A stretch of DNA of 64,000 bases, from positions 930,001 to 994,000 of the forward strand of contig NZ_CP107899.1 in NCBI RefSeq assembly GCF_036013915.1, written 5' to 3'. The notes beneath the pieces were generated by a model. That model ran no database searches. It was not told the origin of the DNA and saw only the letters and a program-made list of their open reading frames with translations. The first letter of the stretch is position 1. Each line of letters starts with the position of its first letter. Shown piece after piece: positions 47,983 to 50,843 of this stretch. Source of the stretch: Streptomyces sp. NBC_00464 (GTDB taxonomy: Bacteria > Actinomycetota > Actinomycetes > Streptomycetales > Streptomycetaceae). The translations under genes and the position numbers were made by a program.

Positions 47983-49185
<1,203 letters not shown>

Positions 49186-49455
49186 GAAGAGGGATCTCCT
49201 CGTCATTCTTTGTGGGGGGATTGGCCCTCGGCCGGAAGATCTCCGGGGGTTGGTTCGAAACCCTTACCGATTGACGCGCGCAGATCAAGACCCCCCTTGC
49301 GCCTGCAACGTCCCTGACAAGATTTCGTCACAGGATGCCGACCGGTGGTCCCCAACTCGGGCACAACTCCGCCCCTTCACAGCGGTCGACCCACCGGACA
49401 CAGCGCTCTGCCCCGACCGTGACACCGCATCACGGACGGGGCGGAGGCGGGTGGT

Positions 49456-50502
49456 TCAGCGTCGGGTGACCCGTACCCCTGTCACACCCATCAGCCCGGC
49501 GAGGGGAACGCGGGAGGCCGTCTGCGCGGGATCCACCGTCAGACCGCCGCCGCGCACCATGTCGAGCAGCATCTCCGCGAGCGGCATCACCATGTGACGC
49601 CCCCAGCAGCGCTCGGACTCATGGCCGAAGGGCAGGTAGCCGGGCTGACCGTCCGGGTCGAGACGGTCCCAGCGCTCGGGCCGGAACGCGTCGGGATCCT
49701 CCCAGAGCACGGGGTCCCGGTGGCTCAGCAACGGCAGGAGCAGGACGTCGTCGCCTGCGCCGATCCGGGGGTCGAGCGCGGGGTATTCCGGGGACGCCCT
49801 TCGCAGAATGTTCCAAGAGGGCGGCAGCAGCCGCATGGCCTCGTAGAGGATGTTCCGGTTCGAGGTCGCGTCGTCGAACGGTGATCCGAGCCAGAGCGCG
49901 CTCGCGACAAGTGTCGATACGGTGAAGCAGACCGGGGCCGCGGCTCTGCGGTACAGGCCCATCGCATAGCGGCGGTCGCCGTACCCCTTGGCCTCGGCGG
50001 TCAGGCCCGCGATGGCGGAGACGGGTGCACCGGGGCGCAGCCTGCCGGGCAGGGCCGCTCCGGCGACGATGACCGACCAGGTGAGTTTGGGCGTCAGTTC
50101 CAGAATGCGGTCCATGAGGATGCGCAGCCGGTAGGGGTCGCCCCCGAGCAGCAGATCACGCAGGTACACATGGCCCACATGCGGCCATTCACCCCGGAGG
50201 TCGGCGTCCCCGGGAACGGGCTTCTTCAGGGCCGTCCGCACGTCGCGGCCGATGGCCTGCATGACGGTGGCAGCCTCGGCACGGGGAATGGACCGCCCGT
50301 GAAGGGGCTTGAAGGTGGGGCGCTCATCCTCGGTGGCCGGCCGGGCGGCGAGGATGCGGTCGGTCAGGCCGGCCCCGGCGACGCCGACGGTGCCGGGGTC
50401 CAGCCGGAAGATCTCCTCGCCCCGGTGGTCCGTCAGGAGCGCCTGGAGTCTCGGCGCGAAGACGACGTCCCGGGCACGGCTGCCGGTACCGGATATCTGC
50501 AT
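49456..50502 (-). CDS. Short cytochrome P450, probable RiPP-crosslinking enzyme (tryptorubin/atropopeptide type)
   Basis: A 348-residue P450, about 50 shorter than usual. Present: ExxR as EAMR (221-224), FRPERW (273-278) and the haem loop PFGHESERCWGRH with Cys299. Atypical: in the usual FGxGxHxCxG, the second Gly and the His are both Glu (295, 297), and no AGxDT-type I-helix motif stands before the K helix. ATG 50502 follows TTGGAG. It is directly downstream of the precursor gene at 50616-50696. By analogy with tryptorubin it would form carbon-carbon and carbon-nitrogen links between the aromatic side chains of the core. No other tailoring gene is next to it. Confidence 0.85.
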   Translation of the reverse strand: MQISGTGSRARDVVFAPRLQALLTDHRGEEIFRLDPGTVGVAGAGLTDRILAARPATEDERPTFKPLHGRSIPRAEAATVMQAIGRDVRTALKKPVPGDADLRGEWPHVGHVYLRDLLLGGDPYRLRILMDRILELTPKLTWSVIVAGAALPGRLRPGAPVSAIAGLTAEAKGYGDRRYAMGLYRRAAAPVCFTVSTLVASALWLGSPFDDATSNRNILYEAMRLLPPSWNILRRASPEYPALDPRIGAGDDVLLLPLLSHRDPVLWEDPDAFRPERWDRLDPDGQPGYLPFGHESERCWGRHMVMPLAEMLLDMVRGGGLTVDPAQTASRVPLAGLMGVTGVRVTRR

Positions 50503-50526
50503 CGTGGTCTCCAAGAAGCGAGAGGC

Positions 50527-50568
50527 GCCCGTGCCCGGCGGGCCGGTGAGGCCACGCCGGGCACGGGC
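50527..50568 (-). terminator. Hairpin between RiPP precursor and P450 gene
   Basis: Perfect 14-bp stem, GCCCGTGCCCGGCG (50527-50540) with CGCCGGGCACGGGC (50555-50568), 14-base loop, in the 113-base gap. It may protect or partly end the precursor mRNA so that precursor exceeds enzyme. Confidence 0.7.
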
Positions 50569-50615
50569 CCGGCCGACGGACCGCGTCCGCCGGCCGGCTG
50601 GACTCGAGCGCCGGT

Positions 50616-50696
50616 TTAGTACCAGTGGTACCAGGCGTACGCCTTCAGGCTCTTCTCCGGCGTCATCTTGTCCTTCAGCAGAAAAAGGAACTTCAT
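50616..50696 (-). CDS. RiPP precursor peptide, tryptorubin-like, core AWYHWY
   Basis: A 26-residue peptide. Leader: MKFLFLLKDKMTPEKSLKAY (1-20). Proposed core: AWYHWY (21-26, C-terminal). Tryptorubin A is a P450-crosslinked hexapeptide from AWYIWY, so only the fourth core residue differs (His for Ile). ATG 50696 follows GGAGG at a good distance, which supports real translation of this tiny gene. A P450 gene follows on the same strand. The removal of the leader would need a peptidase from elsewhere. Function of related compounds is not established. Confidence 0.9.
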   Translation of the reverse strand: MKFLFLLKDKMTPEKSLKAYAWYHWY

Positions 50697-50813
50697 AACA
50701 GCACCTCCATCTTTGACTTTGAATTTACTTTTCCGGGGCACAACTCGGCCGCTATTGCGATACGGACTTCCCGCCTCGGCAGAAACTCCGTACCGCCGCT
50801 CACCGCCAACAGG

Positions 50814-50843
50814 AGTACAGCCCAGAGCAATTGCCGTTGTCAA
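50814..50843 (-). promoter_or_regulatory. Candidate promoter of the RiPP locus
   Basis: TTGACA (50843-50838), 18-base spacer, TGTACT (50819-50814) on the minus strand, giving a leader of about 110 bases before the precursor ATG. Confidence 0.45.

Follow-up and report, generated by a model that had tools for sequence, protein, structure and literature searches.

Do a 26-codon reading frame ending in AWYHWY and the lone cytochrome P450 gene that follows it make up a tryptorubin-type locus, and if so, what becomes of the histidine that takes the place of isoleucine at position 4 of the core? These questions are raised by a locus of Streptomyces sp. NBC_00464, found in a stretch of 64,000 nucleotides that was analysed as a whole and is called the window in the following. 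A preliminary description had proposed a minimal tryptorubin-like locus with a new core and, possibly, a new cross-link through His. We conclude that this is very probably a minimal tryptorubin-type (atropopeptide) RiPP locus with a bicyclic product, in which the side chain of His4 would be left uncross-linked.

Gene structure of the locus

The precursor gene runs from an ATG to a TAA stop codon and codes for the 26-residue peptide MKFLFLLKDKMTPEKSLKAYAWYHWY with AWYHWY at its C-terminus (Table 1). It is preceded by a strong ribosome binding site, and GGAGGTG is likewise present ahead of the precursor in syntenic relatives. The P450 gene lies on the same strand at a distance of 113 nt. Its start was placed at the ATG at 50502; an alternative longer start is a TTG at 50514. 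At E 1e-10, no second copy of the P450 was found in the 8.96-Mb genome, the single hit being that of the locus itself. Both genes had been described correctly from the sequence, and the same holds for the left end of the proposed locus span (49456..50843), which is the end of the P450 gene. The right end, however, does not stand: at position 50843 a longer frame of 75 aa opens mechanically with its first TTG, which is an unlikely gene start.

According to Pfam, the upstream neighbours belong to an ABC transporter, for which they encode a solute-binding protein and two permeases. A subtilase (S8) gene (47983-49206 on the minus strand, PF00082) is found directly downstream of the P450 gene. This protease was considered as a part of the cluster and rejected: it adjoins the P450 in the window's own lineage and is without a match in five loci of a second lineage (L111-L115, E 1e-15). 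At the same threshold the other window neighbours were also unmatched in these five loci, save the ABC ATPase, with a 36-37% match in two of them.

Table 1. Position of genes, ribosome binding sites and hairpins of the locus within the window.
Feature	Position	Strand	Description
Atropopeptide-type cytochrome P450, 348 aa	49456..50502	(-)	PF00067, 3.6e-12; ExxR at 221-224; heme Cys299 in FGHESERCWG
P450 Shine-Dalgarno GGAGA	50508..50512	(-)	read from sequence
Second intergenic hairpin	50527..50568	(-)	14 + 4 bp; counterpart kept, covarying in relatives
First intergenic hairpin	50569..50597	(-)	13 bp stem, 3-nt loop; absent from some relatives
Precursor gene	50616..50696	(-)	leader MKFLFLLKDKMTPEKSLKAY, KSLK at residues 15-18, core AWYHWY, stop TAA; NF038372
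Precursor Shine-Dalgarno GGAGG	50704..50708	(-)	7 nt upstream of ATG

Assignment to the tryptorubin family

When compared to known precursors, the peptide matches the NCBIfam model NF038372 (tryptorubin family RiPP precursor) over residues 1-26 with 59.5 bits, the curated cut-off being 33 bits (E 2.7e-16, or 3.7e-14 at whole-genome scale). None of 14 control genomes was matched by this model. It matched 46 of 392 genomes in a draw from the genus (41 above the cut-off) and 31 of 391 in a draw from the order (30 above the cut-off), two draws which overlap. A sub-lineage with a PSLK leader (L054, L055, L056, L058) has AWY[FI]WY cores and family P450s and scores 20-26 bits; as this is below the cut-off, NF038372 probably misses true members.

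Three features define the atropopeptides (PMC11450843): a P450 of the class, the leader motif KSLK and a Trp as the second core residue. The precursor carries the leader motif (...TPEKSLKAY-AWYHWY) and has Trp at the second position of its core. The P450 shows full-length homology to P450s adjoining tryptorubin-type precursors, and its class was judged through these precursor-adjacent homologues rather than through the reference enzymes TrpB, ScaB, SvaB and LauB1. In a search for P450 relatives, in which the best 8000 candidates were scored, 460 matches were obtained; the 120 listed are 92 to 69% identical with 97-100% query coverage, and their hosts include Streptomyces, Kitasatospora, Embleya, Collimonas and Xanthomonas. 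When sequences of solved structures were searched, the best stretches began around residue 207-221, and only the C-terminal heme half of various P450s was matched (among the best 60 of 163 and the best 60 of 199 matches).

The P450 is a regular companion of the precursor. It is present in 78 of 80 loci that had been reached by the precursor model, the peptide or a pattern; this total comprises the window and 79 fetched loci, with copies counted. The two loci without it are a chance pattern match (L039) and a weak model match with 22.3 bits (L057). In a P450 tree of 69 rows (quick method, SH-aLRT only), the window P450 groups inside the peptide-modifying family, and the nearest row is L012 (92%). 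As the rows were picked for a precursor next door, the pairing with a precursor is by construction in this tree. Not included were L001, which is the same as the window, L034 and L041, where the P450 is cut by the locus end, identical copies, and L039 and L057, where no P450 was found. Nearly all of the 69 rows have the heme loop sequence FGHx[SND]ERCWGRH (P450 residues 292-303), in which positions 297/298 are occupied by Glu/Arg; the usual P450 heme motif has Arg at 297. Glu295 in this loop occurs in the window P450 alone among the 69 rows.

The precursor frame is kept in related species. The same 26-residue peptide is encoded in L015, L036 and L063; three sense codons differ and every change is synonymous. 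Because the codons have changed while the peptide was kept, we consider the frame to be under selection.

Judged by its sequence, the locus belongs to the known tryptorubin (atropopeptide) family, in agreement with the preliminary description. Two of the grounds on which that description would have fallen, a P450 outside the peptide-modifying clade and a precursor frame lost in related strains, were checked, and neither applies. A new kind of RiPP was also considered and rejected, as the family models and the P450 tree place the locus in a known family. It shares with tryptorubin A and other atropopeptides the 26-aa precursor, the KSLK leader, the AWYxWY core and one adjoining TrpB-type P450, and it differs from tryptorubin A in having His for Ile at position 4. 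A comparison can also be made with the biarylitides (P450Blt; Tyr-x-His), which are likewise aromatic RiPPs cross-linked by a P450 that can use His. In the biarylitides, however, His is a bond partner and the precursor is a pentapeptide (PMC13417212), whereas the window precursor has 26 residues including a leader. Since antiSMASH 8 includes a new atropopeptide detection rule (PMC12230676), routine genome mining looks for loci of this family.

The AWYHWY core in other genomes

The core had been called new, and AWYHWY was indeed in none of the 8 papers listed by a full-text search (of 10 with at least one of five terms); the string WYHWY turned up in six unrelated papers. Figures and supplements are beyond the reach of such a search, and it is possible that the core has been catalogued there. 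As a sequence, however, AWYHWY is not new. It is a recurrent natural variant in public genomes: besides the window, 11 Streptomyces genomes were found to have this core next to the same P450, and they represent three P450/leader lineages.

A pattern scan for SLK-x3-WYHWY in a collection of 84,980 species resulted in 9 loci, 8 of which have AWYHWY beside a P450 (Streptomyces spp. WAC 01529, G44, sk2.1, RPT161, ADI95-17, A0642, S. huiliensis and S. silaceus). The ninth, in Mucilaginibacter, is without a P450 and was taken as chance. Three further AWYHWY loci (L044, L063, L066) came from the genome draws, which were unselected for His and led to 67 distinct places; 66 were fetched and 65 cores were read, leaving out L057 (no core read) and G656 (weak match). 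AWYIWY is the most frequent core (21 cases), followed by AWYLWY (16), AWYFWY (11), AWYGWI (8) and AWYHWY (7 including the window), with one case each of SWYIWY and AWYIWF.

Two variants differ beyond a single core residue. In Streptomyces sp. RPT161 (L037, around 1376-1408), an AWYHWY core follows a short, different leader in which RSFK replaces KSLK. This motif is outside the leader motif list published in PMC11450843. The P450 is 67% identical, and we regard it as a further lineage bearing this core. A P450 clade of eight loci (L006, L027, L030, L047, L049, L051, L075, L079) is associated with a 25-residue precursor with the core AWYGWI, so that core positions 4 and 6 both differ.

Exchange of residue 4 of the core

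No other position of the core is exchanged as freely as position 4. On the 69-row tree it is occupied by I, L, F, H or G, with a total of 17 changes. Five of these involve His, and 4 of the 11 His rows came in through the His pattern scan. Such exchanges also occur at one and the same chromosomal position. Six other loci share the gene order of the window (ABC transporter, precursor, P450, S8 protease), with L041 counted as syntenic and its downstream side lying outside the locus. Among these seven, including the window, five have His and two have Leu (L012/L107 and L011/L108). The precursors of L041 and L012 are one sense codon apart, CAC versus CTC, and their P450s are 93.1% identical.

An enzyme specialised for His was considered and rejected, as three near-sister contrasts (His versus Leu, Ile and Ile) revealed no residue of the P450 that goes consistently with His. 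Among 348 P450 positions, a single one differs in all three. This is position 99, where Asp belongs to the His side in two contrasts and to the non-His side in the remaining one.

The published products point in the same direction. In varsorubins B1 and B2a, scabrirubin and laurentirubin B, the bond partners are Trp2, Tyr3, Trp5 and a backbone amide N; laurentirubin B uses Tyr6 as well (PMC11450843). As these four products are described there, the side chain of residue 4 has no partner, though the residue lies inside the ring system. ScaB, an early-diverging and promiscuous member of the same family, takes His at the equivalent place. With ScaA carrying His (I25H) it yields a cyclic tetrapeptide, as judged by extracted-ion mass, with the position of the bond not located in the text; for its products including the one from a WPHWY core, MS/MS puts the bond at residues 1 and 4, i.e. 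Trp-Trp (PMC12352619). The exchange of residue 4 reflects tolerance across enzymes and is not proof that each enzyme leaves His alone.

Predicted product and alternative readings

By analogy to the published relatives, the leader would dock the 26-residue precursor on the P450 through the KSLK region. The P450 would then cross-link the core aromatics by a C-N bond between Trp2 and Tyr3 and a C-C bond between Trp2 and Trp5, and a pyrroloindoline would be closed at Trp5. The leader, and perhaps Ala1 too, would then be cut off by a host protease. The expected outcome is bicyclic AWYHWY or WYHWY with the side chain of His4 uncross-linked within the macrocycle. Most likely, His4 would thus be a spectator and the product AWYHWY minus 4 H, with m/z 921.368. 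The calculated [M+H]+ values are 925.399 for linear AWYHWY and 923.384 at minus 2 H; for WYHWY they are 850.331 at minus 4 H and 848.315 at minus 6 H. The initial rule of minus 2 H per cross-link is not quite right for atropopeptides: varsorubin B1 has three bonds including the pyrroloindoline with a loss of 4 H (PMC11450843), and it is for this reason that we expect the ion at minus 4 H and not at minus 6 H.

A simpler product would have one bond, between Trp2 and Trp5, and would be trimmed to a tetra- or pentapeptide in the style of scabrirubin (minus 2 H). We consider this unlikely. Scabrirubin and varsorubin B2a are precedents for a single bond, and P450 phylogeny has been judged a poor guide to product structure; however, the bicyclic form is given by most characterised members (PMC11450843), and the window core retains A-W-Y-x-W-Y as in tryptorubin A. 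ScaB, in contrast, is early-diverging and forms one Trp-Trp C-N bond, and its product is trimmed to WFIW (PMC11450843).

Still less probable is the new cross-link that had been suggested for His4, in which the imidazole would be bound to Tyr6 (His-x-Tyr) or to Trp2 or Tyr3 as a fourth bond, at minus 6 H. Related P450s do use His: SroB joins C7 of Trp to N-tau of the His at i+3 and SgrB links two His (PMC11002830), and engineered P450Blt links His-x-Tyr (PMC12352619), an arrangement that has its equivalent in H4-W5-Y6 of the window core. However, the residue at i+3 from Trp2 is Trp5 and not His4. Furthermore, Leu alternates with His at the same syntenic locus, the three P450 contrasts give no site that follows His, and ScaB cyclises the His-containing cores as described above. 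If the His4 lineage did add an imidazole bond, which we doubt strongly, it would most plausibly be His4-Tyr6, and the product would be a tricyclic atropopeptide bridged through His, with m/z 919.352 in the case of the hexapeptide; a literature search for a His-bridged atropopeptide product found none. A relic or a chance small ORF next to an unrelated P450, for which no supporting point was found, can be dismissed almost completely in view of the curated family match, the conserved P450 pairing and the purely synonymous change between orthologues.

The preferred reading remains the bicyclic product with His4 as a spectator.

Hairpins between precursor and P450 gene

The 113-nt intergenic region folds with -80.4 kcal/mol (z -5.2, 200 shuffles) and contains two hairpins (Table 1). 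There is no T run after the second one, and a consensus scan for promoters and T-tailed terminators found none. Strong folds are widespread in related loci. Among 68 distinct family intergenic regions (L002-L079 plus the window), 66 have a best 60-nt fold below -30 kcal/mol, the two exceptions being the 49-nt gaps of L004 and L023. We compared the family to 55 same-strand gaps of like length, taken from the window's genome only and based on crude gene calls; in addition, the family rows are not independent. A helix of at least 11 pairs occurs in 56 of 68 family gaps and in 21 of 55 control gaps, a best fold below -35 in 56 and 17, and a z below -3 in 36 and 14, respectively. As hairpins are also common in the window's genome, the excess in the family is one of degree.

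In an alignment of 20 loci, a stem of 11 pairs has pairing in 205 of its 220 cells, and two Watson-Crick types occur at 5 of the 11 pairs. Covariation was counted on 14 of these loci, leaving out L063, which has the same hairpin as L015, and L002, L026, L054, L056 and L037, which are from other lineages or hard to align. For the second hairpin, 90.5% of the pair cells are kept in the 14 loci, compared to 31-45% after a slide by 1-3 columns. Changes on both sides are seen in 14 cells, where the shuffles give 5.7 on average (a count as high was reached in 1 of 500), and in 4 pairs, where the shuffles give 2.3 (35 of 500). Further pair types show no excess (9 versus 9.6 in the shuffles).

The hairpin may be a partial transcription block or an mRNA stabiliser that holds the precursor above the enzyme, and it probably lowers P450 synthesis relative to that of the precursor. 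A word search of the main texts of two atropopeptide papers, PMC11450843 among them, found no mention of an intergenic hairpin. The single paper found to combine atropopeptides with the word hairpin is a review of leader proteases, and a wider literature search on hairpins between RiPP genes brought up nothing of use. In the sva cluster, a ribosome binding site added before the P450 gene increased the yield 100-fold (PMC11450843).

Implications for the atropopeptide family

Close P450s at one chromosomal locus, with precursors that are one codon apart (His or Leu at position 4), form a natural series. Such His/Leu pairs bear on the question of whether atropopeptides can be freely designed at position 4. 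The intergenic hairpin, in turn, may matter for yield, as can be compared with the sva cluster. A His within the rigid macrocycle could act as a metal or acid-base handle.
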